From a virus: a stretch of 39,510 nt of DNA. The stretch lies in the IMG/VR virus record IMGVR_UViG_3300045253_000045, positions 1-39,510 of that record, one strand, 5' to 3'. This document shows positions 4,317-28,602 of the stretch, one piece after another (the first letter of the stretch is position 1; each line of letters starts with the position of its first letter). The position numbers were made by a program, and so were the translations under genes. Under the pieces are notes generated by a model. The model did not search any database. It saw only the letters and a list, made by a program, of their open reading frames with translations, and was not told where the DNA came from.

Positions 4317-4440
4317 GCGCGGTGAGGCTCCGCATCGTCGCGATCATCCGGGCCGGCGCGCAGACGCGGCACAGCCACAAGGCGCGGCCGACGAGCGGCA
4401 TCTGGACGAGTCGGGCCTTCCGCCCGCATGGGCACCTCAT
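4309..4440 (-). CDS. 43-residue Cys-rich (zinc-ribbon-like) protein
   Basis: ATG 4440 overlaps the stop of the connector gene by ATGA. The protein begins MRCPCGRKARLVQ and has a second Cys pair, CRVCAP, near residue 28, giving a CxC...CxxC arrangement that could hold one zinc ion. Short zinc-ribbon proteins of this kind sit among head-tail genes in many actinobacterial phages. No function is known to me. Confidence 0.65.
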   Translation of the reverse strand: MRCPCGRKARLVQMPLVGRALWLCRVCAPARMIATMRSLTAHG

Positions 4441-5123
4441 CCCGCGCTGACCACCTGCTGGCCCGCCTGCCAGCTCGTGATGAAGCCCTGCACTGTGGAG
4501 GGCATCGAGGCGTAGTTGATGATCCCGCCCTGGGGGGTGACGATCGTCTCGGCGAGGATCGCGGCGGGCTGCTTGGTGAAGAACGAGGCGAGCTGCTTCA
4601 CCGCGAGGAGCCACGCGAAGGGGTAGGTGCCCGACGCATACCCGCCATCGCCCACAATGATCATGTCGTTCGGCATCGAGGTCCAGGCGTACCCGCCGCC
4701 GTAGTTGCCGGGGTAGAACGGGTTGTCTAGGGCGGCGTCCCACCAGTTCGGGTTGGCGAGCCACCAGTGCTCCATGTCGCCCCGGAAGGGCCGGAACTGG
4801 AGCGCCGTGAAGATGCCCGTGTTCTGCACGTCCGGCAGCGGCCACACCGCCTGGTTCTGGATGAGGACCGAGCCGTAGGCGGTGATCGAGGTGAAAGTGC
4901 GGAAGCCGGGGATGGGCACGATCGCCCGGAGCATCGTGGTCGAGGTGTAGGTCACGGCAGGTCGGTCCACGAACCAGCGCTTCGTCGCCCGCTCGAGCGT
5001 CTCCTGCGCGGCGAGAATGTTCGATTCGATCTGGCCGGTTGACAGCGACGAGTTCCCGGTCGGGTTGTCGACCTCGAGCTGGAGGTAGTCGCGGACTTCC
5101 GCCGCCGATACGGTCAGGGTCAT
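4437..5123 (-). CDS. Head-tail connector (adaptor) protein
   Basis: 228 residues, ATG overlapping the upstream glycosyltransferase stop. The N-terminus (AAEVRDYLQLEVDNPTGNSSLSTGQIESNILAAQETLERATKRWF in outline) matches the helical start of gp6-type head-tail adaptors, in which a short helix, a loop, a long helix and T-x-R form the ring around the portal. The middle is a larger beta-rich, Trp/Tyr/Gly-rich insertion (about residues 60-165) not seen in minimal adaptors of 100-120 residues. The C-terminal part is helical (AWLLAVKQLASFFTKQPAAIL). Its normal neighbour, the major capsid gene, is separated from it by the seven-gene glycan cassette. Confidence 0.72.
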   Translation of the reverse strand: MTLTVSAAEVRDYLQLEVDNPTGNSSLSTGQIESNILAAQETLERATKRWFVDRPAVTYTSTTMLRAIVPIPGFRTFTSITAYGSVLIQNQAVWPLPDVQNTGIFTALQFRPFRGDMEHWWLANPNWWDAALDNPFYPGNYGGGYAWTSMPNDMIIVGDGGYASGTYPFAWLLAVKQLASFFTKQPAAILAETIVTPQGGIINYASMPSTVQGFITSWQAGQQVVSAG

Positions 5124-6406
5124 GCCGCCACCTGCATTCCGAGCTTCGCGTCGATGAGGGCGACGAACTGCTCCGCCGCCTTGGACCAGCGGAAGAGCGC
5201 GCCGACGTGGATCGGCCCGAGACTCCCAAGATACCTGCGGGACTTGCGGCTCGTGGCGAGCTGCTCCACCGCGTGGCCGAACAGGTCCTCCCGCACCCCC
5301 GCCCAGAAGGACGAATAGATGTTGTCGATGAGCCCTGCGGGTGGAACGAGAATGCCCGCCTTGCCGATGACCTCAGTCACGGACGAGTAGTCCATCCCCA
5401 CTGCGGGAACGCCGCAGGCCAAGGCTTCCGCGATGCACAGCCCGAAGCCTTCCGCGGCCGGCGAGACATAGATGTCCGAGGCGTTGAGCATCGCACAGAG
5501 AAGAGGGCGGTCGACGGGAGCCCCGGCGTCGTGAAGGCCGGTCGAGAGCATCCGGCGCTGGATGTGCACCGGGTATGCGGACTTCTCGATCTCCAAGTCC
5601 CCGCCCTGGTAGATCGTCCGGGTGTGGTAGATGAGATCCACTTCTGGGTTGCGATCGAGGACCGGCGCGATCGAGCGGAAGAGCGACTGCCAGCGCTTCC
5701 GTGGGACGTTCGCATCGTGACGGAACAGCGCGACCCGCCCCGGCTGCCACAGGGGCCAGGACTTGCCGGTAGACGTGTCGTTCACCTTCAGCATCGCGCC
5801 GAGAAAGCGCTTGCAGTCGTCCTTGGAACGCAGCACCACGAAGCCATCGCGGGTGCGGATGGTGATCGGACGGCTTGCACTGACTGGGTAGAAGGCGTCG
5901 GTGTCCACCCCGTGGTAGACCACCGCAGGACGGTCGGGGTAGACCGTGGCGATCTGGTCGGCTCCGAACTCGCTCATCGCCACCGGGGTCATCTTCTGCC
6001 AGATCCTCGCGTGTCCGGGCTTCAGCCCGATGCCCTCGATCGGAACGTAGTGGAAGGCCGGAAAGCCGTCGGGGATGAACCGAAGGATGTCGCTGAAATC
6101 CACCGAGGCGTGGTCGCCGATGATGATCGCCGCCTCCGGTGACCAGCCGTCGATCTCGTGGAACAGCGCGTCCATCCTGCGCAGGATGATCTCAGCTTCC
6201 TCTGGTGCCTTGGGCGTGCCGATCCAGCCGTCGGTGGTTCCCAAGGCGATGACGCGGCCCTTGAATGCCTCGGGCAGGTCCTTGGACTGGTTGAGCGACA
6301 CGAACCGGACATCCACCCCGAGATCGAGCAGGGCCTGTCCAAGATCGATCGTGACCGTGCCGAAGCCCGTGGTTCCGAGATCGCCCAGGACCAGGATGCG
6401 GGTCAT
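5120..6406 (-). CDS. GT4-type (GT-B fold) glycosyltransferase
   Basis: 428 residues. The N-terminal Rossmann half starts with TRILVLGDLGTTGFGTVTID, a Gly-rich loop. The C-terminal half carries AAEGFGLCIAEALACGVPAVG with the E-x7-E motif (Glu319 and Glu327) that binds the nucleotide sugar in retaining family 4 enzymes. Length and layout are normal for the family. It is the last gene of the glycan cassette, coupled by ATGA to both the acyltransferase upstream and the connector gene downstream. It would transfer a sugar from a nucleotide donor to a glycan, protein or lipid. The acceptor is unknown, but the place inside the head operon suggests a virion protein. Confidence 0.87.
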   Translation of the reverse strand: MTRILVLGDLGTTGFGTVTIDLGQALLDLGVDVRFVSLNQSKDLPEAFKGRVIALGTTDGWIGTPKAPEEAEIILRRMDALFHEIDGWSPEAAIIIGDHASVDFSDILRFIPDGFPAFHYVPIEGIGLKPGHARIWQKMTPVAMSEFGADQIATVYPDRPAVVYHGVDTDAFYPVSASRPITIRTRDGFVVLRSKDDCKRFLGAMLKVNDTSTGKSWPLWQPGRVALFRHDANVPRKRWQSLFRSIAPVLDRNPEVDLIYHTRTIYQGGDLEIEKSAYPVHIQRRMLSTGLHDAGAPVDRPLLCAMLNASDIYVSPAAEGFGLCIAEALACGVPAVGMDYSSVTEVIGKAGILVPPAGLIDNIYSSFWAGVREDLFGHAVEQLATSRKSRRYLGSLGPIHVGALFRWSKAAEQFVALIDAKLGMQVAA

Positions 6407-7065
6407 ACGACCACCATCAGCCGGTCATGGAGCTGCGCAAGACGAACCTGCGCGGCCTCGGGGTAGTCGCGGAAGTTCAGGGTCCACGGATACGAGTAGC
6501 CCTGCCAGCGGAGATCGGTCACGGGCCGCAGCGTACCGCCCACAAGCGCCTGCCCGTCAGGCACATCGCGACTGACCGTGGAGTTGGCCCCGACGAAGCT
6601 CCCGACCCCGACCCGCACCCCGGCGATCACGACGGAGTTCATGCACACCACCGAGCCTTCGTCGACGATGGCGGGGATGTTGACGTGCGAGGGCGGGAGG
6701 CGGTTGTCGGTGACGTATGACCCGCCATAGAGCCGAGCGAAGTGCCGCAGCACCCCTTTGGTCATCTCGCAGTCGCCGTGGATGCGCACATAGTCGCCGA
6801 TCTCTCCTCCACCTTCCAGTCGGGACATCGTACCGATGCGGAGGTTGACCCCGATCTGGTTGCCGGCGCGGATGAGGACGTGGTGACCCGTCTCCAGCCC
6901 AGGTCCGATGTCGTTCCCTCCCTCGATGATCGAGTGACTGCGGATGACCGACCCTTCGCCAAGCTTCAGCGGGCCGTGGTCGGAGCCGATGATGCAGAAC
7001 GGCTCGATCACGACCGAGGGATGGATGGTGGTATCGGGGTGGATGATCGCGGTCGGGTGGATCAC
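6403..7065 (-). CDS. Left-handed beta-helix (hexapeptide) acyltransferase
   Basis: 220 residues starting at GTG 7065 inside GTGA. The sequence is a string of hexapeptide repeats beginning IHPTAIIHPDTTIHPSVVIE and running to about residue 165 (VVCMNSVVIAGVRVGVGSFV and SFVGANSTVSRDVPDG), the signature of left-handed beta-helix O- or N-acyltransferases. The C-terminus is a helix, EAAQVRLAQLHDRLM. Such trimeric enzymes usually move an acetyl group from acetyl-CoA to a sugar hydroxyl or amine. A His in the helix region is expected to be catalytic but cannot be singled out by eye. It sits between an SGNH hydrolase and a glycosyltransferase, so sugar decoration is the likely role. Confidence 0.85.
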   Translation of the reverse strand: MIHPTAIIHPDTTIHPSVVIEPFCIIGSDHGPLKLGEGSVIRSHSIIEGGNDIGPGLETGHHVLIRAGNQIGVNLRIGTMSRLEGGGEIGDYVRIHGDCEMTKGVLRHFARLYGGSYVTDNRLPPSHVNIPAIVDEGSVVCMNSVVIAGVRVGVGSFVGANSTVSRDVPDGQALVGGTLRPVTDLRWQGYSYPWTLNFRDYPEAAQVRLAQLHDRLMVVV

Positions 7066-7604
7066 GCCAGCACCGCCGAGACCGTCCGGGCGTAGAGGCG
7101 ATGACCCTCGCCGGTGAGATGTAGCCCGTCTCCGACCAGGAGATCGTCGAGCGGTTCGGCATCGAACGCCGCGCGGGTGTCGATCAGCGCCACCCCCCGC
7201 TCTGCGGCCACCCCTCGGAGCAGGGAGTCGTACCAGATCACGTCCTGAGCGTGCTGCTCACTCCTTCGCGATGGAGTCAGGGTGCACAGGTACGGCACAG
7301 CCCCGAAGCGCCGGCAGCGGTCGATCATCTCGCCGAGGTTGGCGACGTAGGCCTCGGGGGAAACACGTGGCAGTCCGCGGTCGGTCTCCCAGCGGTTGCA
7401 GTCGTTGTGGCCGAACTGGATCACTACGAGCTCGGGCTCGTGCATCTGGACATCGCGCGGGAAGCGCTCGAGGCCCTGCCGCGTCGTCTCGCCTGAGACT
7501 CCCCTGACCAGGACCGGACCGGTGTTGAGCATGACCGGCCACGGCACGTCGGGCGGATCGAGGTGCTGGCCCACGGTGATCGAATCGCCGATGCACACGA
7601 TCAT
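7062..7604 (-). CDS. SGNH/GDSL hydrolase of the glycan cassette
   Basis: 180 residues, a complete single-domain SGNH esterase. Block I is CIGDSIT with the nucleophile Ser8, block II is RGVSGET with its Gly, block III is FGHND at 64-68, and block V is DGLHL with Asp159 and His162. The family cleaves ester bonds and commonly removes acetyl groups from sugars. Some members transfer acyl groups. The gene is coupled by ATGA to the glycosyltransferase upstream and by GTGA to the hexapeptide acyltransferase downstream, so it may trim or edit acylation of the same glycan. No signal peptide is visible, so it acts in the cytoplasm or on the particle. Confidence 0.9.
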   Translation of the reverse strand: MIVCIGDSITVGQHLDPPDVPWPVMLNTGPVLVRGVSGETTRQGLERFPRDVQMHEPELVVIQFGHNDCNRWETDRGLPRVSPEAYVANLGEMIDRCRRFGAVPYLCTLTPSRRSEQHAQDVIWYDSLLRGVAAERGVALIDTRAAFDAEPLDDLLVGDGLHLTGEGHRLYARTVSAVLA

Positions 7605-8452
7605 ATGGGCACCGTCACGTAGTCGAACACCGGGCGGGGAAGCGTTGGAAGATCGTCCTCCTGCCCGGTCCTCGCCACCACCATCTCACGGTCGTTGCAG
7701 AACGCCCGACTGGCGAGGACCTGCTTCTCCGAACGCAGGAGCGTCCGGTGTTCCACGGTGTAGGGCGTGACGAACGCCGCGTGGGGCAGCTTCCGTCTCG
7801 TCTCATCGCCAGCCCACGCCCAGACCTTCTGGCCGTTCTGGATACCCGATACCCACCAGTGATGCCGCTCTACCGAGAGCTGAAGCGATGCCCGCCAGAC
7901 CTGCGGGATCATCTGCGGCCCATCGGCCTGGGCGAGATGCCACTGGCCCGCCGCGAAGTTGCCGCGCTTCCGGTCCTTCGGGGTGATGAACGGCACGTCA
8001 ACCACATCCGCGGTCGAGTTGTAGAGCTCGTTCCGCACCGCTTCACGGTCGGTCTGGATGATGTGGTCAGCATCGAGGGTGACGATCCACTCCGACCCGA
8101 CCGCGGCCATCGCCAGGAGAAGCGAGCGCTTCTCGATCTGGCCCGCCCACAGCCGATCCGGGGTAACGACGAGACAGTCGAGGCCGGCCTTGGCGCACGC
8201 CGCGCGGATGGCCTTGGCCTGGGCCGGATCACTTGCGATGGTCGCGCCGGGATAGCGGCGGTAGGCCCCATCGAGGGCCACCACCCGATCCGCGATCTTC
8301 GCCGCACCTTCGATACAGGCAATGAGATCGGCGGGTCGTTCGTTCCACCAGCACAGCGCGGCAGTGACGATCATCGTCCGGTGCGCCTTGACGGGTTCCG
8401 GGACGTGTCGGTAGGAACTGCCGCCGAAGCTGATCTCATCCAACGAGCTCAT
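7601..8452 (-). CDS. Glycosyltransferase, GT-A/GT2-like
   Basis: 283 residues from ATG 8452, which lies within the end of the upstream gene (17-bp overlap). ATG 8374 (MIVTAALCWWNE) is an alternative. The start TAALCWWNERPADLIACIEG and AKIADRVVALDGAY match the first strands of GT-A enzymes, and EWIVTLDADHII holds the DxD metal and nucleotide motif (Asp127, Asp129). Later AWAGDETRRKLPHAAFVTPYTVEH gives a conserved H. I infer a family 2-like enzyme using a nucleotide sugar and a divalent metal. Donor and acceptor cannot be read from the sequence. It belongs to the coupled cassette 5120-10773. Confidence 0.8.
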   Translation of the reverse strand: MSSLDEISFGGSSYRHVPEPVKAHRTMIVTAALCWWNERPADLIACIEGAAKIADRVVALDGAYRRYPGATIASDPAQAKAIRAACAKAGLDCLVVTPDRLWAGQIEKRSLLLAMAAVGSEWIVTLDADHIIQTDREAVRNELYNSTADVVDVPFITPKDRKRGNFAAGQWHLAQADGPQMIPQVWRASLQLSVERHHWWVSGIQNGQKVWAWAGDETRRKLPHAAFVTPYTVEHRTLLRSEKQVLASRAFCNDREMVVARTGQEDDLPTLPRPVFDYVTVPI

Positions 8453-9275
8453 ACCACCACGTCCTGCTGAACGGCTTGGCAGGGTCGGGCACGTAGCCGA
8501 TGCGGTCCGCGATGAACGACCGAACAGGCTCGCGCTGCGCCCATGAGACCAGCGGAGCGGGGAAGCCCATCTTGTCGGTGCGGTCGATGATCGCGTCGGG
8601 CACGATCCCCCGGACTCTGTTTCGGAGATGGCGCTTGCCGATCCGCTCGGTGATCGGCAGCGACAGGCCGTACTCCACGATGGCGTCGTCCGTGAACGGC
8701 GCTCGCGCTTCGATCCCGAACGCACCAGTCATCGCATCGTCCACTGCCAGGAGGTCGGGCAGGCGGGCGTAGTCGTAGGCCAGGGCTGCTTCGAGATCGT
8801 CCACCGGGTAGTCAGCCGGAGGACGGTAGTGCTCGTAGCCTGCCGGCAGGGGTTCACCAGCCGCCAGGAGCGTCCGGGCGTAGCCGCCGAACAGCTCGTC
8901 GGACCCTTCGCCCGACAGGGCGATCCCGATGCCCTGACTCGCGAGGTACTTCGCGACCATGTACTGGCCGAATGTCCCCATGCCCTGGACGGGAGGCTTG
9001 ATGAAGCCCCGGCAGGCGTCAAAGTGCTCGACGAAGTCCTCGGGCGTGATCCGGATCTCGTGGTGCTCCCGGTGCGCCACGAGTCGGGCGTAATGACGCT
9101 CGTCGAAGCCGGGTTCGTCGTAGTAGCCGGTGAAGGTCGGGAGGTACTGCGGGGAAAGGCACGCCACCGTCGAGGAATCCAAGCCTCCTGAGAGCACGAT
9201 GCCCGTCGCGGGGCCGATCCGCGAGGTGACGGCATCCCGGAGGAGGCCGACGAGATCCGTGGCGACGAGGGTCAT
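8436..9275 (-). CDS. Stand-alone asparagine-synthetase-type ATP-dependent amide ligase domain
   Basis: 279 residues from ATG 9275, whose ATGA overlaps the epimerase stop. It has the PP-loop SGGLDS at residues 29-34 that binds ATP, and LSGEGSDELFGGY at 120-132, the diagnostic block of the asparagine synthetase C-terminal domain. The N-terminal glutaminase domain with its Cys2 is absent, so ammonia must come from elsewhere or another amine is the nucleophile. In this family the acid substrate is adenylated and then amidated or cyclised, as in asparagine synthetase, beta-lactam synthetase and lasso-peptide cyclases. AsnB homologues also amidate uronic acids in surface polysaccharide loci. Beside an epimerase and three glycosyltransferases, uronic acid amidation is the simplest reading. 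A protein side-chain ligase is another. Confidence 0.87.
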   Translation of the reverse strand: MTLVATDLVGLLRDAVTSRIGPATGIVLSGGLDSSTVACLSPQYLPTFTGYYDEPGFDERHYARLVAHREHHEIRITPEDFVEHFDACRGFIKPPVQGMGTFGQYMVAKYLASQGIGIALSGEGSDELFGGYARTLLAAGEPLPAGYEHYRPPADYPVDDLEAALAYDYARLPDLLAVDDAMTGAFGIEARAPFTDDAIVEYGLSLPITERIGKRHLRNRVRGIVPDAIIDRTDKMGFPAPLVSWAQREPVRSFIADRIGYVPDPAKPFSRTWWYELVG

Positions 9276-10147
9276 CGGGTCGCTCCTGAAAGATGGGTAT
9301 ACGTTTCCGTCACCGGATGATCCCGGTACCACGCGATCGTCTCGCGGATGCCGATGGTCAGAGGAGTGGTGGCGATCCAGCCGAAGTCCTCGAAGGTCCG
9401 GGCTGGGTCCAGGAGCAGCGTCGCCACGTCATCCGCCCCGCGTTTGCGCTGCACCGCTGGCAGGTCGGAGCCCATCGCTGCCGCCACCTCCACGTACAGC
9501 TCAGCGATCGAGACATCCCTACCGGAGGATGCGTGGTAGACGCCCTGTCCCTCCGTGCCAGCGGCCAGCGCGAGGCGGATGAGGTCGTCGATGTAGACGA
9601 AGTCGCGGCGGCTATCCACCACGATGCTCTGCGTTCCCTCGGCGATGTTCTTGGCGAAGGTGGGCACGGGTCCTGACAGGTTCCGGGGTCCATACATATT
9701 CGCGAGGCGCAGGCTCACGTAGTCCAGACCAGATCCCCGGATATACGACTCGCCCGCGGTCTTGCTGATCGCGTAGGAGCCGCGAGGGTCCAGGGGCGCG
9801 TCGAGCGACACCATCCCTCGAGCAGGGCCGTAGCAGAGCGAGGTCTGGAAGTAGACGATCCTCGCACCGGTTCGGAGGACGTTGATGGTCCCGGTCACGT
9901 TCGTCGAAGCGTCCCGCTCCCACGCCTCGCGGTCCTTGTACGACGCGGCGCAGTGGTAGACGAGATCGTAGCCCGATCCCGGGTCGTCGAACCGGATATC
10001 GCCGGTGGTGAAGTCCACCCCATCGGGGATGTTCGCGATCCGCCCGGTTGAGAGGTTGTCGATCCCCGAGACCTCGTGGTCCTTCACGAGCGCGTCGGCC
10101 AGGTGACTGCCGATGAAGCCCGCCACCCCCGTGATGAGGATCTTCAC
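9272..10147 (-). CDS. NAD-dependent sugar epimerase/dehydratase (extended SDR)
   Basis: 291 residues from GTG 10147 inside GTGA. The Rossmann motif ITGVAGFIGSHL has Gly7, Gly10 and Gly13, the catalytic pair is Tyr125 and Lys129 in GSYAISK, and Ser103 lies in FQTSLCYGP. RLANMYGPRN and DFVYIDDL are the sugar-nucleotide blocks of UDP-glucose epimerase-like enzymes. Size is normal. It would make or interconvert a nucleotide sugar (4-epimerase, dehydratase or decarboxylase type, not resolvable by eye) for the glycosyltransferases encoded around it. It is coupled to both neighbours by 4-base overlaps. Confidence 0.9.
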   Translation of the reverse strand: MKILITGVAGFIGSHLADALVKDHEVSGIDNLSTGRIANIPDGVDFTTGDIRFDDPGSGYDLVYHCAASYKDREAWERDASTNVTGTINVLRTGARIVYFQTSLCYGPARGMVSLDAPLDPRGSYAISKTAGESYIRGSGLDYVSLRLANMYGPRNLSGPVPTFAKNIAEGTQSIVVDSRRDFVYIDDLIRLALAAGTEGQGVYHASSGRDVSIAELYVEVAAAMGSDLPAVQRKRGADDVATLLLDPARTFEDFGWIATTPLTIGIRETIAWYRDHPVTETYTHLSGATR

Positions 10148-10773
10148 GCGCTGGCCCCGATCTTCACGTACAGCTCCGTCGAGGCGGGTGCGACATCGCT
10201 CATCTTGGAGTGGATGAGGTAGGCCGAACGAGGTGCCTTCGGGAGAAGAGCTGTTCCTCGCAACGACGATTCGCCCATCCCGCCGAGCATCACCAGCTCG
10301 TGCACCGGGCGATACCAAGACGCTTCGGCCGTTCGGAACAGGCGGCAGTGCCAGTGCTCCTCCCACTCCGGGCCTTGCACGCCGTCCTCGAAGTTCTTGG
10401 TGAAGAACAGGTATCCCCGAGGAGCCGGGTAGCGGGCGTTCTGCCACGTCACGTCGGTCCACTCCGACGCATCGATCATCGCCACGAAGTCCAGCATCGC
10501 TCGAGAGGGCAGTTCGTCAGGATCGACGATGAGCGTCCAGTCCCCGGTGCAGTGGGGGAGGGCGGCATTGCGTCCCGCCGAGAAGTCATCGACCCACCGG
10601 AAGGGGACAACGACCGTTCCCTTCCAGTGGGCGATGGCGTTGGAGGTCTCCGCCGCCGTCCGGTCATCGACCACGAACACGAACTGTGTCACGACCGGGC
10701 GCAGGTACTCGACGAGCGAGACCAGCCGGTCCAACGGTGGATCCTTGACCAGGAAGGCGGCGGAGACGGTCAC
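10144..10773 (-). CDS. Glycosyltransferase, GT2-like, first gene of the cassette
   Basis: 209 residues from GTG 10773, which overlaps the stop of the major capsid gene by GTGA. The N-terminus SAAFLVKDPPLDRLVSLVEYL and FVFVVDDRTAAET are the typical GT-A first strands. WVDDFSAGRNAALPH and WTLIVDPDEL contain the D-D and DPDE (Asp84-Asp86) donor and metal sites. EWEEHWHCRLFRTAEASWYRPVHE carries the conserved W/H acceptor-side block of cell-wall type family 2 enzymes. It is short (about 210 residues), so probably a bare catalytic domain. Coupling to the capsid gene means it will be made together with capsid protein. Confidence 0.82.
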   Translation of the reverse strand: MTVSAAFLVKDPPLDRLVSLVEYLRPVVTQFVFVVDDRTAAETSNAIAHWKGTVVVPFRWVDDFSAGRNAALPHCTGDWTLIVDPDELPSRAMLDFVAMIDASEWTDVTWQNARYPAPRGYLFFTKNFEDGVQGPEWEEHWHCRLFRTAEASWYRPVHELVMLGGMGESSLRGTALLPKAPRSAYLIHSKMSDVAPASTELYVKIGASA

Positions 10774-12206
10774 GGAATGAGCCCGGTGATGAGCTGGAAC
10801 GCGCCCACCGCCACGGCGGTATCTGCGTTCACGCCGAATTCGACCTCGCCGCGGAAGCCAATCGTGTTCTTGTCGAACCGATCGCCGGCCACGTCCGAGC
10901 TATCGACCCGGAACTCCATGCCCCGGTAGAACTTCAGCGCCTTCCACTCGCCGACGATGGCGATCTTGGCCGCCGCGTTGGAGGTCAGGTTGGCATCGAA
11001 GAAGACCGGCACGCCCCTCCAGCGGAGCGCGTTGTCGGTGCCGATGGAGAACCCGGCCCCGAGGAGGTCGGACATCCAGAAGCCCGCCGAATCGCTGCCC
11101 TGACTGAACAGCGTCCAGTAAGTGACGGCGTCGAGGACGGCCGCCGAGGGATAGCGGGATCGGGTCGCCAGCGTCCCGAAGGCCGAGGCGAGTCCGGCCG
11201 CTGCCGAGCCGGCCACGGTCGAAGCCGAGCCGGTGAAAGCGGTCGTGTAGACGTTGCCGAGGAGGGACGTATAGACGCCCTTGGTCGGGTCGTTGACGCC
11301 CGGCGTCGCGGAGCCCGTGCCCGGACCGGCGATGACGGCCTTGTTCTCCGCCAGAGCCGCCGACTTGGTCAGCTCGTCGAGGACATCCTGCTCGGCGGCA
11401 CCCGCACTGAAGCGCGCGTACTGCTTGCCGATGTCGTAGATCTTGGCGAAGGTGCCGAGGGTCGCGGTGTACGAGCCGTAGGCCTCGTCCACGTTGGTCT
11501 TGGTTGCGCCCCAATTCTGGGCCGTCATCGCGGCCGGAGCGCCGGTGCGGTACGGCTGGTCGATGCCCCGGATCATCACGCCCGGAATGACCGTCACGAG
11601 CGGGTTTGCCCCGGTGTAGACCGCGACCTGCGTGTTGGGCTTCTCCAGGGTCGCCACGAGGTTGTTGGGGAGGACGTAGCCGCCCGTCGCGCCCGTGGTG
11701 CCGAGGGTCGCCTTGCCTTCCGGCGCAGCGAGGTAGTAGAGGCCCATCTGCGTCAACGACGCCTTGCCGAGGGTGAACTCGTCGGGGTTGCCGTGGACGT
11801 TCATGATCGCCGTGAGCAGCTTGCCGGCTTCGTAGTTGGCACCGAGGGTCGCCTTCAGCGCGGGACTCGCGTCCTGCTGGAAGCGGACCTTCGTGGCCTC
11901 GTCGAGGGCCGGTCCCCCGCCGATCATGGCCGCGAGCGAGGGTGAACGGACATCGAGCAGGGCCGCCTTGACGGCTTCCGCTGCGATGACCTTGAACTCG
12001 TCGCGAAGCTTGCGATTGTCGAGGTCAGCCTTGGCCTCGGTTGTCGCGGTCGCAGCCTTCGCCTGGTCAGCCGACGCATCGACGGCTGCCGCGTAGCGGC
12101 CACCATCCTGCGCCGTGCCACCGGGCGCGCTCTCGACGCGCGTCTCGGAGAGGCGGTTCAGCGCCGCGGTGAACTCCGCGAGCTGTTCCGCTGAGATTTC
12201 AGACAC
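10770..12206 (-). CDS. Major capsid protein (HK97 fold)
   Basis: 478 residues from GTG 12206, with AAAGGG and AAGGA just upstream. Residues about 1-120 are charged, Ala-rich and helical, the usual scaffold-like delta domain cut off by the protease. The rest shows HK97-fold traits: GATGGYVLPNNLVATLEKPN, the E-loop region, a long helix around QDVLDELTKSAALAENKAVIAG with GPGTGSATPG, and the C-terminal RWRGVPVFFDANL and VGEWKALKFYRGMEFRVDSS blocks common to capsid proteins of this group. Position after the protease and portal genes agrees. The glycan cassette follows directly. Confidence 0.92.
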   Translation of the reverse strand: MSEISAEQLAEFTAALNRLSETRVESAPGGTAQDGGRYAAAVDASADQAKAATATTEAKADLDNRKLRDEFKVIAAEAVKAALLDVRSPSLAAMIGGGPALDEATKVRFQQDASPALKATLGANYEAGKLLTAIMNVHGNPDEFTLGKASLTQMGLYYLAAPEGKATLGTTGATGGYVLPNNLVATLEKPNTQVAVYTGANPLVTVIPGVMIRGIDQPYRTGAPAAMTAQNWGATKTNVDEAYGSYTATLGTFAKIYDIGKQYARFSAGAAEQDVLDELTKSAALAENKAVIAGPGTGSATPGVNDPTKGVYTSLLGNVYTTAFTGSASTVAGSAAAGLASAFGTLATRSRYPSAAVLDAVTYWTLFSQGSDSAGFWMSDLLGAGFSIGTDNALRWRGVPVFFDANLTSNAAAKIAIVGEWKALKFYRGMEFRVDSSDVAGDRFDKNTIGFRGEVEFGVNADTAVAVGAFQLITGLIP

Positions 12207-13073: not shown

Positions 13074-15242
13074 CTACATCTCTCCGATCACTGGTACAAA
13101 ATCGAGTGTCCCGTTGGGATGATCTTCGATCTGGTCGGCCTCCTCGATTGAGAAGATCTGACCGTCACGTTCGGCGCACTCGGGGTCGCCATCTCCATCG
13201 ATGGCTTGGACTTCAGTGACCCCGGCATCGCTGTACGACGCGAGCGCGGCCGCATTGAACGAATCCATGAGCTCGGTTCGGGCGATCATCTCCGCGCGGT
13301 AGTCGAGATCCCCGATGAGGCCGCCTTGGCGTCCGATGAGCGAGGTCAGGTCTGACCCGTTCTCGATGGCGTCGGCGATGTCCAAGAGGCTCACGTCCTG
13401 CTCGATCGCCGTGGCGAGGATGGACGCGATCTCATCCCTGGTCGTCTGGTTGATGTTCGTCACCCTCGCAGCTCCACGTGTCAGGACGCGATCCACCGCA
13501 TCGACGGGCAGGGCCTTCACCGGAGGAAGGGTGTCGGAGACCTGACGGGAGACGGACGTCGCCATGCCCGCCATCGCCCCTGCCAGGGCTCCCGTCAGCG
13601 CCCGGTCCCAGCGCTTGGCATCGAACCAGACCGAGGTATCGCGAGGCTTGCGGGCGATCTGCGCGGCGTGGGCGCGGATGCGTTGCGCGATGTCCGCCCG
13701 CTGCTCGTGGAGGATCGTCGCCACTGCGGTCTTGATCCGGGGGGTCTGGTGGGTGGCGATCTGGTCGCGCAGGGCGATGAGCGATTGGCGCAGCGGCCCG
13801 ACGCGGGGATGGATGCGCGCCTTGCCCTGCGTCGTCTCGCCGGATGCATTCAGCGCTGCGTCGGAGGGCTGCGTCGTGCTCATGCCCGTGGGTGCAGGCT
13901 CGGCGGCGATCTGCGCTGGGGTTCCCTCATCGGGGGCGTAGGACGACATGACCATCGTCGCCGGTCGCCACACTTCGTCGTCGAGGAGTTGGCCTTGGGC
14001 GTTGAGCGCCGCCGGACCGAACGGATCGAGGCCGATCAGTGCTCTTCGTTCGCGTTCGCGCATCCCGATCGAGATCGACTTCCCGAGCAGGTCGTAGCGC
14101 GGGCTGTCGTCGTCGAACTCCGGCTCTTCGAGGACCAGTTCGGGCGTCCAGCCGAGCCGCTTCTGCCACTTCGAGAGCACGCTGTCCTGGAGGCCCTCCT
14201 GCAACGTAACCAGCCGATCGTGGACCGGCCCCTGCCACAGCGCGGCCTCGTCGTACTTGCGGCTCTCGCCGGAGTTCAGGCCTGCTGCTCCGCTGACTCC
14301 GACCAGCGTGCCGGGGATGTTCCACGCCACGAACAGGTCGTCGCGCATGAGCTTCATCAGGTCCACGATCGCCAGTTGCTCCGGGGTCATCGTGGTGTGC
14401 AGGAAGTCCACGGGCGCGGCGATGAGCTGGAGCCGCTTCGCCGCATCGGGCTGCTCGGTGATGGTCCGCCAGTCACGCTCGAGCTGGAGCATCTGGTCCG
14501 GGCCCAAGGTTCCCGTCTTCGGGCTGACGAAGCCGGACAGCCTGCCGCCCGCCGCGAGTACCGACGCGAGGTGCTTATCGAGCGAGGTCGAGAGCTGCGC
14601 CATCAAGAGGGCAGATTCCACGAGGCCCGGACCGAAGTGCCCGCTATCGGGCGGTTCGAGCATGAAGTGCACGATCTGTTCAAGCGACACGCTGATGCCG
14701 GGGTTCTGCGCGGTCTTGTCGATGAACCAGCCGATGAGGTTGCCGTTCGCGTCCTCATCCGGGGTCAGCCGGTCAGGGCGGAGGTAGGCGAGGGCCTTCG
14801 GCGTCCCGGCGTAGGCCTCGGGCTGGTCCTGGAGGAAGAACGAGTTCCCGGCCAGTCCGAGATGACGGGAGTACAGCCGGAACAGCGAGGACCGGCTGAG
14901 GGGCTGTCCCACCCCGAGCAGGGCCTGCGGCTTATCGAGCAGCGCCCACGCCGCCACCGCCTCCTGGTCCGGGTAGGTCGCCTCGATCTCCACCCCCTCG
15001 GGGTCGTTGAGGTCTACGTCGATCGTCGCCACCTTGGAGCCGATGAGCCGCTCGGCGGTTCGGATCCACGGCACGCTCATGCCCATCTGGTAGGCCGTCC
15101 GCATCTTGGAGTGCGGGTCCTTGCCGAGATAGCTGAACAGCGGGTACTCGGTGAGCAGGACGCCGGCACCGGAGCCGATCGGGCCGGCCTTCAGCGGCTC
15201 GGCGGGACGGGGGGCGATGTAGATGCTCAATGGACGACCCAC
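13074..15242 (-). CDS. Portal protein fused to a MuF-type minor head domain
   Basis: 722 residues from GTG 15242. TTG 15230 is a possible later start, and no good ribosome site is seen. Residues about 20-430 are an HK97/SPP1-type portal, with SVPWIRTAERLIGSKVA, LYSRHLGLAGNSFF, the YLRPDRLTP strand, WNIPGTLVGVSG and the RERERRALIGLDP stretch. A Pro/Ala-rich linker follows (about 440-490). The C-terminal part has RTELMDSFNAAALASYSDAG, IDGDGDPECAERDG and IEDHPNGTLDFVPV, the MuF/SPP1 gp7 pattern (R-T-E, then C-x-x-x-D-G, then H-P-N). One polypeptide thus combines portal and the minor head protein that is usually a separate gene. Confidence 0.86.
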   Translation of the reverse strand: MGRPLSIYIAPRPAEPLKAGPIGSGAGVLLTEYPLFSYLGKDPHSKMRTAYQMGMSVPWIRTAERLIGSKVATIDVDLNDPEGVEIEATYPDQEAVAAWALLDKPQALLGVGQPLSRSSLFRLYSRHLGLAGNSFFLQDQPEAYAGTPKALAYLRPDRLTPDEDANGNLIGWFIDKTAQNPGISVSLEQIVHFMLEPPDSGHFGPGLVESALLMAQLSTSLDKHLASVLAAGGRLSGFVSPKTGTLGPDQMLQLERDWRTITEQPDAAKRLQLIAAPVDFLHTTMTPEQLAIVDLMKLMRDDLFVAWNIPGTLVGVSGAAGLNSGESRKYDEAALWQGPVHDRLVTLQEGLQDSVLSKWQKRLGWTPELVLEEPEFDDDSPRYDLLGKSISIGMRERERRALIGLDPFGPAALNAQGQLLDDEVWRPATMVMSSYAPDEGTPAQIAAEPAPTGMSTTQPSDAALNASGETTQGKARIHPRVGPLRQSLIALRDQIATHQTPRIKTAVATILHEQRADIAQRIRAHAAQIARKPRDTSVWFDAKRWDRALTGALAGAMAGMATSVSRQVSDTLPPVKALPVDAVDRVLTRGAARVTNINQTTRDEIASILATAIEQDVSLLDIADAIENGSDLTSLIGRQGGLIGDLDYRAEMIARTELMDSFNAAALASYSDAGVTEVQAIDGDGDPECAERDGQIFSIEEADQIEDHPNGTLDFVPVIGEM

Positions 15243-15840: not shown

Positions 15841-16014
15841 TCACTTCTCCACCGCCCGTCGATCCGCGATGACCGCAGACGCCACGAAGTAGCCCGCTGC
15901 CACGAACAGGGCGAGGCCTGCTCCGACGGGTCCGAAGATCGTTGCCCCGAGCATCGCGGCACCCGTTACCGAGAGGGTGAACGCTACGTCGAGGGCGTGT
16001 TGGGCGGCGATCAC
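15841..16014 (-). CDS. Small membrane protein after the large terminase
   Basis: 57 residues from GTG 16014, overlapping the terminase stop by GTGA. Two hydrophobic segments (about residues 8-28 and 30-46, the second GLALFVAAGYFVASAVI) suggest a two-pass membrane protein with a basic end. It is the last gene before the convergent plus-strand pair. Function unknown. A holin-like or superinfection role is possible but not shown. Confidence 0.65.
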   Translation of the reverse strand: MIAAQHALDVAFTLSVTGAAMLGATIFGPVGAGLALFVAAGYFVASAVIADRRAVEK

Positions 16015-17288
16015 GCCACGCCTCCCGCGCGCTGTCCGGCGAGCTGCGCCCACGGGTTGTCTTCCATCGTCGGATCGAGCGAAACGACGGCGTACCTAAG
16101 AGCGTCGCTTGCATCGTCGTTGATCTCGATCGGCTTCTCCGCGAACCCTCCGGCTCGTGTCGTGGCCCAGGTGTAGCCGGGGATCTCGCCAAGGAGTCCG
16201 CGACACGATGGGCTGACGGTCATGCCGTGCGCGATGGCCTTGGACACGGCGGCGATGCCTGGAGACACGTCATTCCGGGCCGGTTCCATCGGCAGCCCCG
16301 CAGCGCGGCACTGCGCGATGTACGCGGGCTCGGAGGGGTCGGCGAAGAACGTCTTGATGCCGTGCGTCTCCCGCACGAACTGGAGCGCCGGGATGATGCG
16401 GTCGATGGTCACGCCTCGCTCGTACACCTCGTCGATGACCGCGAGCCTACCAGCCCCGGATTGCCCCACGACCTCACAGGCGAAGGCGTGGACGAAACCC
16501 CAGTCCACCCCTGCCACGACCTGCTTCCACGGCCCCTGCACGGTGATGATCTGCTCGTCGGGGAGCTGCCAGATCTGACCCTCTGCCCCGACCCACTCTC
16601 CCAGGATGTAGCGGCGCTTGAAGTAGTCGGTAACCCCACCACGGGCTTCGGTGAGGTAGTCCGCAGGGAGAGAGGGGTTATCGAACGTCGAGGCGTGGAG
16701 GTATTCCCGCTCAGGCGTCGAGGGGGTGAAGCGCTGCTTCAACCAGTGCTTCGGGCTTGCGGGGTTCGTGGCGGCGGTGATCTGGTGCCACGTGATCCCC
16801 GGCCACGACAGCCGGCCTTTCACCATGATCCAGTCCGCCTCGGAGCACTCCGCAGCTTCATCCACGAACGCCCAGCCGAGCTCCACCGATCCTACCTTCG
16901 AAGGAAGCCCGGTGATCGGGTCCGGGTCGAGGCCGAACAGCCAGATGCGGGAGCCGTTCGCCAGCTCGTACCACCGCTCCGTCCTGTTACTTCGGACGAT
17001 CTCGCCACGCGGGATCACGTCGTGGAGCAGGGTTCGCTCCGTCGACGCTGCGAGGGACGCGGCGGTCTTTCGGAAGATGCCGATGGGGATGCCCGGATAG
17101 CGCTTGGCGAGGCTGTATGCCTTCTCGCAGCCGATCCGGCTCTTGCCGGCGCGGAACGCCCCGGAGTACAGGACTTCGGGTGCCTCGGAGCGCATGAACC
17201 GGCGCTGCTGCTGGTTGACGAAGGTCGGGCCGAGCTTCTGGCGCAGGGCTTCGAGGACCGGAGTGGGAGCAGCCTCAATCGACAGCAT
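16011..17288 (-). CDS. terL: Terminase large subunit
   Basis: 425 residues from ATG 17288, which overlaps the small-subunit gene by 14 bp. The ATPase half has Walker A GAFRAGKS at 43-50, Walker B LGWAFVDEAAE near 137-146 and the coupling motif ITAATNPAS. The nuclease half begins with VAGVDWGF (metal Asp), continues with TFFADPSEPAY and ends with INDDASDALRYAVV, the three acidic sites of the RNase H-like fold. It cuts and packages DNA into the prohead through the portal. The motif spacing is normal. The packaging type cannot be decided from this alone. Confidence 0.95.
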   Translation of the reverse strand: MLSIEAAPTPVLEALRQKLGPTFVNQQQRRFMRSEAPEVLYSGAFRAGKSRIGCEKAYSLAKRYPGIPIGIFRKTAASLAASTERTLLHDVIPRGEIVRSNRTERWYELANGSRIWLFGLDPDPITGLPSKVGSVELGWAFVDEAAECSEADWIMVKGRLSWPGITWHQITAATNPASPKHWLKQRFTPSTPEREYLHASTFDNPSLPADYLTEARGGVTDYFKRRYILGEWVGAEGQIWQLPDEQIITVQGPWKQVVAGVDWGFVHAFACEVVGQSGAGRLAVIDEVYERGVTIDRIIPALQFVRETHGIKTFFADPSEPAYIAQCRAAGLPMEPARNDVSPGIAAVSKAIAHGMTVSPSCRGLLGEIPGYTWATTRAGGFAEKPIEINDDASDALRYAVVSLDPTMEDNPWAQLAGQRAGGVA

Positions 17289-17721
17289 CGGGGACCTTGC
17301 GGCTCGCCAGCCAACGGTCGATGTCGTCGGCGAGCGCGTCCATCGCGTCGGGTGACAGGGTGTCGGTGATGTCACGCTTCTCCACCCGTTCGGTGGCGTG
17401 GCCGGACAGGAGTTGGCTCTTGTCGATCGCCACGCCCAGCAGGACCGTCAGATCGCGGGCCTCCATCGTCGGGATCAGCGCCTCGAGCCGGTCCTGGGCG
17501 AGTTGCGCCAGCACCCGGAAGCCCTCCGCCATCTCCTCGCGGGTTTTCTGCCGAAGGGTGACGAACTCCGGTCGCTCCAGCCAATAGGCGATCGTCGTCC
17601 GCGGGATGCCGGTCTTCTCCGCCGCAGCCATCGTCGAGGACAGCTCAGCCGTCACAACTGCAGCGGCCTTCTGCTTGCGGGTGTACGACCGTCGCTTCCC
17701 CACCACGCGGAGCTCTGTCAC
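17275..17721 (-). CDS. terS: Terminase small subunit (HTH)
   Basis: 148 residues from GTG 17721, chosen because it forms a GTGA overlap with a 17-codon reading frame. The N-terminal half is a helix-turn-helix (YTRKQKAAAVVTAEL, then MAAAEKTGIPRTTIAYWLERP) suited to binding the packaging site. A helical oligomerisation region follows (EEMAEGFRVLAQLAQDRLEALI and LTVLLGVAIDKSQLLSGHATE, the latter also typical of small subunits). It directly precedes the large subunit with 14 bp of overlap. In some phages this architecture is annotated only as helix-turn-helix protein. Confidence 0.8.
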   Translation of the reverse strand: MTELRVVGKRRSYTRKQKAAAVVTAELSSTMAAAEKTGIPRTTIAYWLERPEFVTLRQKTREEMAEGFRVLAQLAQDRLEALIPTMEARDLTVLLGVAIDKSQLLSGHATERVEKRDITDTLSPDAMDALADDIDRWLASRKVPDAVD

Positions 17722-17771: not shown

Positions 17772-17947
17772 CCCTCTGCGATCTCCCGGAGTCGGAAGCA
17801 GCTCTCACACGACTTGCCGACCGGGAGGCCCGGTGCGGTCTTGGCGTTGGCGGGTGCCCATCGTCCGCACAGGGTATGGATCAGCCCACCGCGCGAGACG
17901 AGCCCTGAGGTCAGATGCCACGAGCGGACCAGGACCCAGGACTTCAT
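17768..17947 (-). CDS. 59-residue Cys-containing phage protein
   Basis: ATG 17947 overlaps the stop of the upstream membrane gene by ATGA. The protein has LIHTLCGRWAPANA followed by GKSCESCFRLREI, that is H-x2-L-C-G-R and C-x2-C, a likely zinc site that I have seen in short actinobacterial phage proteins with the same H-T-L-C-G and S-C-E-x-C pattern. The pattern and tight coupling argue that it is real. Function unknown. Confidence 0.7.
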   Translation of the reverse strand: MKSWVLVRSWHLTSGLVSRGGLIHTLCGRWAPANAKTAPGLPVGKSCESCFRLREIAEG

Positions 17948-18213
17948 CCGTCAACGGGTCCCGGTGCCACGGTGGCGGTTGCCGGAGGCCCGGAGGTCAC
18001 GGTCGCCGTGGGCTGCGCGGCCTGGATGCGGAGCACCTGACCAGTAGCCGAAGCTCCACCAGCGTCCCGGAAGACATAGCCGAGGACAGCGCCGACGGCG
18101 AGCCATGCCTGACCCGCATCGCCCCGAGCATCGAAGATCAGGACGAACGCACCGATCAGGATGAGCACCGCGACGATGTACGTGAACAGCGTTCGGAGCG
18201 TGTCCTGCGTCAT
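17944..18213 (-). CDS. Two-pass membrane protein, possible holin
   Basis: 89 residues. Two hydrophobic segments at about 8-28 (LFTYIVAVLILIGAFVLIF) and 33-48 (AGQAWLAVGAVLGYVF), separated by a short charged turn, then an Ala/Thr/Pro-rich tail. The size and layout fit a class II holin, and it lies three genes after the endolysin. Overlaps neighbours by TGATG upstream and ATGA downstream. No specific holin family recognised. Confidence 0.65.
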   Translation of the reverse strand: MTQDTLRTLFTYIVAVLILIGAFVLIFDARGDAGQAWLAVGAVLGYVFRDAGGASATGQVLRIQAAQPTATVTSGPPATATVAPGPVDG

Positions 18214-18419
18214 CAGTGACCTCCAAAGATCGACGGTCCGCCGAAGAACCAGAGGACTCCAGCCGCGAGGCCGAGCAGGGCTGCGCCGGCGACCAGTGCG
18301 TTACCGAGCGTGGTGAGGAACGGCGCGCCGCTCTCCGCGAGCAGGGGGCCGACGAGCTTCGCCAGTACCCACCAGACGAGCGCCGCGATGATGACCGCGA
18401 TGATGATGTGCTCGATCAT
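18213..18419 (-). CDS. Small membrane protein, possible holin
   Basis: 68 residues starting one base after the stop of the upstream gene. Two hydrophobic segments, about 4-22 (HIIIAVIIAALVWWVLAKL) and 38-60, joined by a loop with SGAPFL. With the neighbouring 89-residue protein it forms a pair next to the endolysin, so one could be holin and the other antiholin. This is inference from topology and location. Confidence 0.65.
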   Translation of the reverse strand: MIEHIIIAVIIAALVWWVLAKLVGPLLAESGAPFLTTLGNALVAGAALLGLAAGVLWFFGGPSIFGGH

Positions 18420-21345: not shown

Positions 21346-22022
21346 GGTACCGGCTCCTCGGGTGATGGGATGGCCGGGACCGGAGACTCCCTGAGAGCGG
21401 CGTCGATGATGGCGAGGAGTTCGGCGCGGTCGAAGTCCGCAAAGCATTGCGTCTCCGGGTGTTGGCGCACATGCCCCGACGCGAGATCGTCGGGGAAGCC
21501 TTCGGCGTACTGACTGTGACGGCGGCGGATCGCCCGCATCGCGATGTCATACCGTTCGACGATGGCCCGCAGTCCCGGCGTCTCGGTCGGAGACTCGGCT
21601 GGTTGCGGCGACTCATCGAAGGGTGGGCCGTCGCCCGGTTCGTGGCGGTCGATCCAGCCGTGGACGAACGCTCGCTGGATGCTCCACGGCTGCGCCGAGA
21701 ACCAGTAGGCGAACGCTCGCGCCGGGTCCTTCGGGGGTTCCGGTGATACCGACTCCCCGAGAGCGGCGCGGAGAGCGCGCTCGGCTTCGTCCAAGTCCCG
21801 GCCCAGTTGGTCCACCCACGAGTCGTCCGTGGACAGACGCCCACCCATCAAGGCATCGCGGGCTTCGAGGAACGCGACGATCTTCTGCCGCAGTCCCGGC
21901 GTCTCGGTCGGAGACTCGGCGTAGTGCGGGTCGGGGCACTCGCATCCCGGCATCCGCTCGCGGCCTTCATTGCGGTAGTTCTCGCGTGGGTCCTGATCCA
22001 GTACGTCCTCGATGCCGCTCAT
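21342..22022 (-). CDS. Repeat-linker protein with internal interspersed repeats (226 residues)
   Basis: Composed of helical segments joined by linkers. The peptide AESPTETPGLR occurs twice (about residues 35 and 140), each followed by a helix (RQKIVAFLEARDAL and RAIVERYDIAMRAI), so the protein looks like an internal duplication. A further linker, ALGESVSPEP, is encoded by the DNA element shared with the next gene. It may be a pair of small helical domains on flexible linkers. Function unknown. It overlaps both neighbours by 4 bases. Confidence 0.6.
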   Translation of the reverse strand: MSGIEDVLDQDPRENYRNEGRERMPGCECPDPHYAESPTETPGLRQKIVAFLEARDALMGGRLSTDDSWVDQLGRDLDEAERALRAALGESVSPEPPKDPARAFAYWFSAQPWSIQRAFVHGWIDRHEPGDGPPFDESPQPAESPTETPGLRAIVERYDIAMRAIRRRHSQYAEGFPDDLASGHVRQHPETQCFADFDRAELLAIIDAALRESPVPAIPSPEEPVP

Positions 22023-22492
22023 GCTCGCTCCTTCGGCTTCTCGGGTTCCGGTGATACCGACTCCCCGAGAGCAATCGCGGCGATGCGTTCAGGGTCGTTC
22101 GTCCATTCGTTCGAAGCCGTGTCCCACGCATACGCGCCTGGTGGCGGTGATACCGACTCCCCGAACGGGTCGCGTTCGTAGCGGTGCAGGCCGCGATGCC
22201 CGGTGGCCCTGACACAGACCCACGGAGTGTCGTCCGAGCGCCGATGGCCGCAGGCCGGGGGTGATACCGACTCCCCGAGAGCGGCGAGTCGAGAGAGCGC
22301 CGTTGCGGAACAGGCCGGAGCATGGAGCCAGCCTTCGTGCGGCTCGGACTCCGACACGCACCAGCAGGGCGTCCCATCGGGCATGTACCGCTTCGGAGGA
22401 CCGGCCTCGGTGTAGGCGCGCCGGATCGCCGGGTCGTCCCACATGACGCGAACCTCGTAGCCCTGCGGTGATACCGCCTCCCCGAGAGCGGC
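21736..22492 (-). repeat. Interspersed repeat family A (ALGESVSP element), five copies
   Basis: On the plus strand the core is GGTGATACCGACTCCCCGA. Copies start at 21736 (with GGTTCC before it), 22043, 22145, 22258 and 22466 (one base changed). In the genes all copies are in the same frame and read as (A)LGESVSP. A partial relative (ACTCCGAGAGCAGCGCG) lies near 22826. The spacing is irregular. Confidence 0.85.
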
Positions 22493-22816
22493 ACGGGCGG
22501 CGTCGACCAGAGCGATGTCCAGATCGAACGGGCTGGTGATGCCCTTCGCCTCGCAGGCCCGCAGCAATGCCTCGCCTTGGGCGTCGAGCATGCGGGCATG
22601 TACCGGCGGGCGACAATCGCACCACTCGTCCGCTTGGTGCGATCCTGCAACGAACCGGGTGGTCGGGTGCGCCATCATCTCGTCCTCGACTGCGACCACC
22701 GAGCGGAGCATCTGAGCTTTCTTCGCCGGGTCGTTGCCCGCAAGGAATACGAGCCGCCTACCGGCTTCCGTCAGCGGTGCCGAGCGCGGCCTGCCTTCAT
22801 CGCGTATGTCGCTCAT
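22019..22816 (-). CDS. Modular protein carrying four copies of the ALGESVSP linker (265 residues)
   Basis: The linker (A)LGESVSP recurs at about residues 112, 175, 216 and 252, each time between unlike short modules. One module has CDCRP and a helix, one has PCWCVSESEPHEGWLHAPAC, one has PACGHRRSDDTPWVCV and GHRGLHR (Cys/His, zinc-like), and one has WDTASNEWTND. The modules look like separate small phage proteins that were strung together, the linker being a repeated DNA element. No function is recognised. Both ends overlap neighbours by ATGA. Confidence 0.6.
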   Translation of the reverse strand: MSDIRDEGRPRSAPLTEAGRRLVFLAGNDPAKKAQMLRSVVAVEDEMMAHPTTRFVAGSHQADEWCDCRPPVHARMLDAQGEALLRACEAKGITSPFDLDIALVDAARAALGEAVSPQGYEVRVMWDDPAIRRAYTEAGPPKRYMPDGTPCWCVSESEPHEGWLHAPACSATALSRLAALGESVSPPACGHRRSDDTPWVCVRATGHRGLHRYERDPFGESVSPPPGAYAWDTASNEWTNDPERIAAIALGESVSPEPEKPKERA

Positions 22817-24382: not shown

Positions 24383-24582
24383 CGGACGAGCCACGGATGC
24401 GCGACGAGGTAGTCGTAATGTGTGACCGGGTCCGGCTCCTGACCACACGACTTAGCGGTCCACCGGGCCGCGTTGTGTCGCCAGCCGCCGTCCTTCTTCC
24501 GGCGCAGCCATAGGCCGTCGCGCGAACACATGCGTCTCTCCTCCTGTTCACTGAGCGCCCGTACCGACTCTGACTCAGACAT
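24379..24582 (-). CDS. Small basic protein beginning MSESESVRALSE
   Basis: 67 residues. The start is encoded by a DNA element also present before the methyltransferase gene at 25137. The remainder is basic and Trp-rich (LWLRRKKDGGWRHNAARW, ending HYDYLVAHPWLVR). The upstream stop overlaps the start by 8 bp. Function unknown. Confidence 0.55.
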   Translation of the reverse strand: MSESESVRALSEQEERRMCSRDGLWLRRKKDGGWRHNAARWTAKSCGQEPDPVTHYDYLVAHPWLVR

Positions 24583-25132: not shown

Positions 25133-25167
25133 CGGGTGAGCGCCCGTACCGACTCTGACTCAGTCAT
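25129..25167 (-). CDS. Possible 12-residue leader peptide MTESESVRALTR
   Basis: ATG 25167 lies in the end of the upstream zinc-finger gene and its TGA forms ATGA with the methyltransferase start. The peptide repeats the N-terminus of the 67-residue protein encoded at 24379-24582. It probably arose by copying the repeat. It could bridge translation between the genes. Expression is not shown. Confidence 0.3.
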   Translation of the reverse strand: MTESESVRALTR

Positions 25168-28477: not shown

Positions 28478-28602
28478 AGATCACCGAACGGTTCTGCGAA
28501 CGGATCGCGGTTGCCAAGAAGGCGCATCGCCCATGCCGTGAGCAGCGCGTACCCGGCGAAGGCTGCGGCTGCGATGAGGAGGGCGAGGGCTACGAGTCTC
28601 AT
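28474..28602 (-). CDS. 42-residue membrane peptide
   Basis: ATG 28602 forms ATGA with the upstream stop, and its TGA forms GTGA with the next start. [20 protein letters not shown] is a single membrane span near the N-terminus, followed by a short acidic end (PFAEPFGDL). Coupling on both sides supports it. Function unknown. Confidence 0.55.
   Translation of the reverse strand: MRLVALALLIAAAAFAGYALLTAWAMRLLGNRDPFAEPFGDL

Follow-up and report, generated by a model that had tools for sequence, protein, structure and literature searches.

What would a tailed phage build with seven sugar-processing genes placed between its major capsid gene and its head–tail connector gene, and onto which molecule? 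The question is posed by a complete IMG/VR virus record of 39,510 bases (IMGVR_UViG_3300045253_000045; hereafter the window, meaning this whole stretch), which represents a tailed phage. Its capsid–connector interval is filled by seven intact genes on the minus strand, and comparison with relatives identifies a fixed site with conserved boundary glycosyltransferases (GTs) and an exchangeable interior. We argue that this site is probably a virion-glycosylation locus built into the head operon. A first-pass annotation of the DNA had placed the same seven intact genes, in this order, between capsid and connector, and gene calls and family matches agree with it:

10770..12206, minus strand: major capsid protein with the HK97 fold (PF05065, 5e-11; phrog_10, 2e-16; relatives), the upstream boundary of the site
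10144..10773, minus strand: GT2-family glycosyltransferase (GT2) with a DPD motif, adjoining the capsid gene (PF00535)
9272..10147, minus strand: nucleotide-sugar epimerase, an extended short-chain dehydrogenase/reductase of the WbmH/WbmG family (PF01370)
8436..9275, minus strand: stand-alone asparagine-synthetase domain (AsnS) of the PP-loop, amide-forming kind (PF00733, 6e-50)
7601..8452, minus strand: glycosyltransferase of GT2 fold with a DAD motif (GTmid; phrog_7009)
7062..7604, minus strand: SGNH/GDSL acyl-hydrolase or acyltransferase with all four blocks (PF13472, 2e-28; acylhydrolases in PDB)
6403..7065, minus strand: hexapeptide sugar acyltransferase with a left-handed beta-helix (LbH; PF00132)
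5120..6406, minus strand: GT4-family glycosyltransferase (GT4), directly before the connector and the invariant gene of the site (PF13692, phrog_2170)
4437..5123, minus strand: putative head–tail connector, assigned by position and conservation, the downstream boundary of the site

Seven of the eight junctions in this block are four-base overlaps, reading GTGA at capsid/GT2, GT2/epimerase and SGNH/LbH, and ATGA at epimerase/AsnS, GTmid/SGNH, LbH/GT4 and GT4/connector. At AsnS/GTmid the overlap is 17 bases if GTmid starts at the ATG at 8452, and 8 if it starts at an inner TTG. The few-base, mostly ATGA or GTGA overlaps described in the first-pass annotation are thus present, as is the coupling to the capsid gene, whose overlap with GT2 makes the cassette one translationally coupled block with the head genes. 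Across 17 complete sites, the window included, the same overlap of −4 is found at 53 of 77 internal junctions. The catalytic motifs, also described as intact, could all be read directly: E-x7-E as EGFGLCIAE, DxD as DPD and DAD, YxxxK as YAISK, the SGNH blocks as GDS/GHND/DGLH and, in the PP-loop protein AsnS, SGGLDSS together with SGEGSDELFGGY. All seven genes are under purifying selection, like the head genes, with ratios of nonsynonymous to synonymous substitution (dN/dS) of 0.16–0.47 compared to 0.34 for the capsid and 0.28 for the portal, values that are rough because dS is high. A foreign composition of the cassette was considered and rejected, its G+C content being equal to that of the flanks.

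In a 19-residue Kyte–Doolittle scan, the hydrophobic stretch was at most 1.7 in every cassette protein, compared to 2.0–2.75 for the likely membrane open reading frames (ORFs) of the same phage. Because membrane-type hydrophobic stretches are absent from the cassette proteins, no lipid-carrier or export step is evident. Family matches to a flippase, a polymerase or a lipid-linked glycosyl-phosphate transferase were likewise absent among the seven.

The first capsid search returned two close relatives. In L003 (capsid identity 76%) the whole seven-gene set is present in the same order, with junctions identical to those of the window and proteins 65–87% identical, and the interval recurs on further contigs from other metagenomes. 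An assembly chimera at 5.1 or 10.8 kb, raised in the first-pass annotation, was rejected on these grounds, and the expected conservation of the cassette order beside the capsid genes of relatives was found in L003 and in the capsid- and connector-linked loci described below.

A capsid profile search yielded 26 relatives, down to 36% identity. GT4 stands directly before the connector in all 17 loci with a complete interval (capsid-baited, window included), and a GT2 homologue is present in 10 of them, being the first gene in about half of the sites; its identity to the window protein is 85% in L003 and L004 and 52–70% in others. The profiles derive from these very families, and near-copies occur among the loci (the L010 type enters four times), such that these and the following counts describe a pattern, not a random sample. 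A GT4 profile search gave 79 viral loci, 70 of them with the connector following GT4; of the 70 loci with enough downstream sequence, 61 have it within 600 bases. The loci lacking a connector are five distant relatives (28–31% identity) and four that are ended by the contig. The capsid gene lies 1.0–5.7 kb upstream in 56 of the 79, and these 56 loci hold 19 different complements of recognised genes between capsid and connector, the smallest consisting of GT2 and GT4. No empty site was found among the GT4 loci, where GT4 was the search bait, nor among the 17 capsid-baited sites, which are free of that bias.

The genes between the GT2 and GT4 boundaries vary among the 17 complete loci. By Pfam they are mostly GT2, GT1-like, rhamnosyltransferase, TOD1/MUCI70, methyltransferase (including the FkbM type) and cytidylyltransferase genes; epimerases are also seen, and some interior genes belong to no family. 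This swapping of the interior among relatives while the boundary GTs are retained is the strongest feature of the site.

Several further observations concern its composition. In the minimal sites L250, L252 and L235, only GT2 and GT4 homologues are recognised, with 1.0–1.3 kb before GT4. Interior genes without a Pfam match include L135 10530-11549 and its relatives (cluster c3), L138 5700-6596 (c10) and L145 9451-10710; cluster c3, though without a Pfam family, ranks among the commonest genes of the site. A homing-type endonuclease family, HNH_3, is encoded in the window at 31883-32362, in L003 at 17927-18379 and in L048 at 13828-14253. In the two relatives it lies on the opposite strand beside the glycan site, after the connector in L003 and after GT2 in L048. 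This endonuclease may help to exchange the site interior.

The epimerase and AsnS genes also travel as a pair. The pair adjoins capsid genes in the L003 and L010 groups and directly follows an unrelated capsid gene in L005 and L007; in G005 it lies between the small and large terminase genes (TerS/TerL), and in L009, L018, L157, L159 and L166 it comes after terminase–portal or portal genes. The core is also found near terminase or head genes in L019, L020, L164 and L165, with no recognised epimerase in L020, and the phages that bear it include ones with unrelated terminases. The window AsnS is 76% identical to that of L005, whose capsid is similar only at the Pfam level, and equally 76% identical to that of L003. 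Grouping the three capsid-related AsnS sequences as one clade was rejected by an approximately unbiased (AU) test (p 0.0007), and so was the idea that AsnS was inherited vertically together with the capsid; applied to the epimerase, the test gave p 0.305.

The 23 viral AsnS sequences form one clade without a cellular member (Shimodaira–Hasegawa-like approximate likelihood ratio support 99). A scan of 84,980 species genomes with two short patterns found no AsnS of the viral clade in its best 80 matches. The best cellular matches were 23–39% identical, compared to 48–76% in viruses. A recent capture from a host polysaccharide locus was rejected, since the clade holds no sampled cellular member and the cellular matches are distant. 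As far as the sampled genomes go, the core appears to be an old viral possession exchanged between phages, not a fresh host copy.

The individual enzymes suggest what the cassette may produce. The epimerase matches PDB entry 2q1w end to end in a profile comparison (1e-99), and its full-length match is to WbmH (337 bits) and WbmG (295 bits) compared to 176 bits for GalE. It carries a GxxGxxG motif and a Thr-Tyr-Lys triad (T102, Y125, K129, all invariant). WbmF, WbmG and WbmH, which belong to a di-acetamido-uronic-acid pathway of Bordetella, have been proposed to produce UDP-L-GalNAc3NAcA, an acetylated uronic acid (PMC2279256), and by analogy the window epimerase would act on a UDP-uronic acid. 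The hexapeptide protein is closest to QdtC (3fs8, 9e-26), followed by a lipopolysaccharide (LPS)-biosynthesis acetyltransferase (3mqg, 5e-8). QdtC is an N-acetyltransferase of a 3-amino sugar nucleotide.

The amide ligase domain named in the first-pass annotation is indeed a synthetase domain (PF00733), with the correction that it lacks its glutaminase: AsnS is 279 residues long and comprises the synthetase domain only. SGG-DSS and SGEG-DELFGGY are invariant in 13 viral members. The best fold matches of its AlphaFold model (predicted local distance difference test, pLDDT, 92) are AsnB and human ASNS in their synthetase halves, followed by beta-lactam synthetase. The AsnB-like proteins WbpS and WbqG turn uronic acids into uronamides (PMC7468200). 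Against the corresponding model TIGR03108 (eps_aminotran_1) the window protein scores 83 bits, with a cut-off of 817; it is not a member, and only the catalytic domain is related. The gene at 7601-8452, GTmid, is a glycosyltransferase as originally called, though one of GT2-type fold that Pfam misses altogether. The nearest folds to its model (pLDDT 87) are ThuS (Z 16.1) and SunS (Z 15.1; VIA-align over 205–211 residues), with other GT2 enzymes at about 13. ThuS and SunS are peptide S-glycosyltransferases, which transfer the sugar to Cys, and the likeness of this predicted fold is only a lead to a protein acceptor for GTmid.

These features suggest a model, in which the substrates, the order of the steps, the protein acceptor, and the existence and benefit of the glycan are what we infer from the genes. 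The capsid mRNA would be translated together with the seven soluble enzymes, which would act in the cytosol before particles assemble or while they do so. The epimerase, of WbmH/WbmG type, would convert a host-supplied UDP-uronic acid into the form that is used, and AsnS would activate its carboxylate with ATP to form an amide (a uronamide). Because it has no glutaminase, AsnS would use ammonia or another amine. The hexapeptide enzyme would acylate an amino group or else a hydroxyl, and an O-acyl group would be added or trimmed by the SGNH enzyme. The three glycosyltransferases would attach the first sugar to a virion protein, the major capsid protein being the most probable one, and then extend the chain. 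The boundary enzymes GT2 and GT4 would be the basal machinery, making a basal protein-linked glycan, and the interior genes would set the glycan type, in this case a uronic-acid unit that is epimerised, amidated and acylated and that GTmid would add.

We favour virion glycosylation because the enzymes appear soluble, the cassette is coupled to the capsid gene, its position is strict and its interior resembles that of a serotype locus. Several points weigh against this proposal. The locus is known here from its genes, and the precursor uronic acid would have to come from the host. Mycobacteriophage capsid and tail-tube glycans have been reported at protein C-termini (PMC12619734), and the window capsid protein does not end in a Ser/Thr-rich tail. 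The glutaminase domain of the known uronamide synthases is missing from AsnS. Finally, late co-expression by itself would be equally compatible with a late change of the host surface. Under that last alternative, the cassette would modify a glycan of the host cell surface late in infection and block, for example, adsorption of released particles or of other phages; in its favour, O-antigen and exopolysaccharide loci typically contain epimerase, amidotransferase and acyltransferase genes like these. The known phage seroconversion clusters (gtr), however, depend on membrane proteins, and among the seven there is neither a membrane protein nor a flippase, a polymerase or a lipid-linked glycosyl-phosphate transferase. 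The apparent solubility of all seven enzymes favours a virion target over a cell-surface polymer, and together with the strict capsid and connector linkage over a large phage group this makes a host-surface role quite unlikely. Modification of phage DNA, by analogy with glycosylated hypermodified bases, is very improbable. Virus-encoded GTs do glycosylate DNA in known cases (reviewed in PMC12619734), but among the part of the window ORFs that was scanned there was no sign of a base-hypermodifying enzyme such as a hydroxymethylase or thymidylate-synthase-like protein, only an adenine-methyltransferase-like one (27451-27954), and amidation and acylation genes adjoining a capsid gene do not fit such a function.

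Among the possible acceptors the capsid protein leads by position only, and we consider it about an even call that it is the one. Another virion protein (tail tube, connector or fibre) is possible, though we doubt it: mycobacteriophage tail tubes are glycosylated too (PMC12619734), GT4 is fixed beside the connector and the putative tail-tube protein of the window ends in NTQATTV, but this Thr-containing end is not conserved in relatives and the direct upstream neighbour of the cassette is the capsid gene. A product of uronamide type is, in our estimate, an evenly balanced prospect. AsnS might instead act on protein carboxylates or join an amino sugar to a carboxylate, giving an amide-linked glycan and not a primary sugar amide; the missing ammonia-producing glutaminase domain would suit this chemistry, and fold relatives such as beta-lactam synthetase and lasso cyclase use other amines. 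We regard it as unlikely, as AsnS nearly always adjoins a uronic-acid-type epimerase and as TIGR03108, the family of WbpS and WbqG (PMC7468200), is among the NCBIfam models closest to AsnS apart from AsnB.

How far is such a locus without precedent? The first-pass annotation held that phages normally have nothing or one small gene at this place, and that a seven-step set would go well beyond the one or two glycosyltransferases that some phages encode near capsid genes. The former does not hold generally and the latter, in that form, is not supported: in Cluster J mycobacteriophages capsid and connector are separated by 8–10 genes, which vary among members and include many GT and methyltransferase genes (Pope et al. 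2013, PMC3706429), and the Pontimonas phage phiPsal1 has a set of three at the same place. Pope et al. raised the question of whether viral or host molecules are the target (PMC3706429). Cluster J (Omegavirus; Thibault gp11-gp19, Courthouse gp15-gp21, Omega, LittleE) resembles the window in position, in having several GTs with other modifying enzymes and in variable content, and it includes GTmid homologues (Thibault gp19, 5e-36; Courthouse gp21, 1e-35, by profile). It differs in having, by annotation, no epimerase, AsnS, SGNH or hexapeptide enzyme, in having a kinase and a zinc protease, and in a capsid unrelated to that of the window at the BLAST level. The order in phiPsal1 is capsid, GT4, methyltransferase, GT2 and neck; its GT4 is homologous to the boundary GT4 (2.6e-27), while the site comprises three genes only, and we found no literature follow-up of it (PMC6106888).

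Experimental proof that phage-encoded GTs glycosylate capsid and tail-tube proteins comes from Che8, Corndog and Myrna (Freeman 2023, cited in PMC12363180). One or few GTs are credited there, without amidating or acylating enzymes; those systems are experimentally proven, whereas the window cassette is a prediction from gene content. The annotated stretch of Myrna that was examined names no glycosyltransferase. Among bacterial systems, WbmG and WbmH of the Bordetella wbm O-antigen locus match the window epimerase over the full length with the same TYK triad (PMC2279256), but serve cell-surface LPS with membrane-linked assembly. WbpS and WbqG share with AsnS the catalytic domain and the expected amide formation on a sugar carboxylate (PMC7468200), but carry the glutaminase domain that the window protein, far below the family cut-off, does not have. 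The gtr seroconversion clusters comprise the membrane flippase GtrA, the bactoprenol glucosyltransferase GtrB and a membrane GT, unlike the window cassette, which has neither such matches nor a transmembrane-like stretch. The general arrangement was therefore already known from Cluster J. New here are an amidating core that has no glutaminase and whose AsnS belongs to a virus-only clade, the occurrence of this core in phages whose terminases are unrelated, and the architecture of fixed boundaries and exchangeable interior over dozens of uncultivated phages.

The remaining structural genes place the cassette within a head region:

16011-17375: terminase
13074-15242: portal with a head-morphogenesis (MuF-like) domain at its C-terminus, one ORF of 722 residues
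3677-4141: neck1-like/tail-completion gene after the connector (phrog_5)

In L010 relatives, the two portal/MuF halves are separated in BLAST, yet lie within one 874-residue ORF. The connector gene (4437-5123) has no family match of its own, but its place is kept in all relatives, with the neck1/tail-completion gene coming next; the start of the tape-measure gene was recognised by sequence appearance only. Terminase relatives are distributed over many hosts, the portal is nearly without matches, no capsid homologues were found in isolated phages at the BLAST level and no tRNA was found in the window phage. The sole host leads are the GT homologues in actinobacterial phages.

Elsewhere in the window, the mid-phage segment 24473-27774 (plus strand) holds mostly long plus-strand ORFs of doubtful coding value, the only recognisable ORF within it being the adenine-methyltransferase-like one noted above (minus strand, phrog_111). 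At 29219-29637, inside the minus-strand gene 28599-29825, a 12-base tandem repeat is present in about 24 register copies and encodes a QVxDQVxx-type repeat preceding a DUF6745 domain. Five copies of GGTGATACCGACTCCCCGAGAGC, some diverged, lie at 21742-22514 within several minus-strand ORFs and are read as ALGESVSP; a related ESVSP/SARTDSDS reading occurs at 24552-25170. The GGTGATACCGACTCCCCGAGAGC copies might represent linkers in proteins, binding sites or a small mobile repeat.

Taken together, these results are compatible with a serotype-like capsid–connector locus in a large uncultivated phage group, in which the boundary GTs stay and the interiors are swapped, such that related virions would carry different glycans; one type would be an amidated, acylated uronic-acid glycan made with an amidotransferase from a virus-only clade moving among phages with unrelated structural genes. 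We judge this full account to be about as probable as its negation. If it is correct, some phage groups would keep exchangeable surface-glycan loci, as bacteria keep O-antigen or capsule loci, and the surface chemistry of the particle would be under diversifying selection outside the receptor-binding proteins. Such loci would also offer, as a source that can be tested, soluble enzymes for building and amidating sugars on cytosolic proteins.

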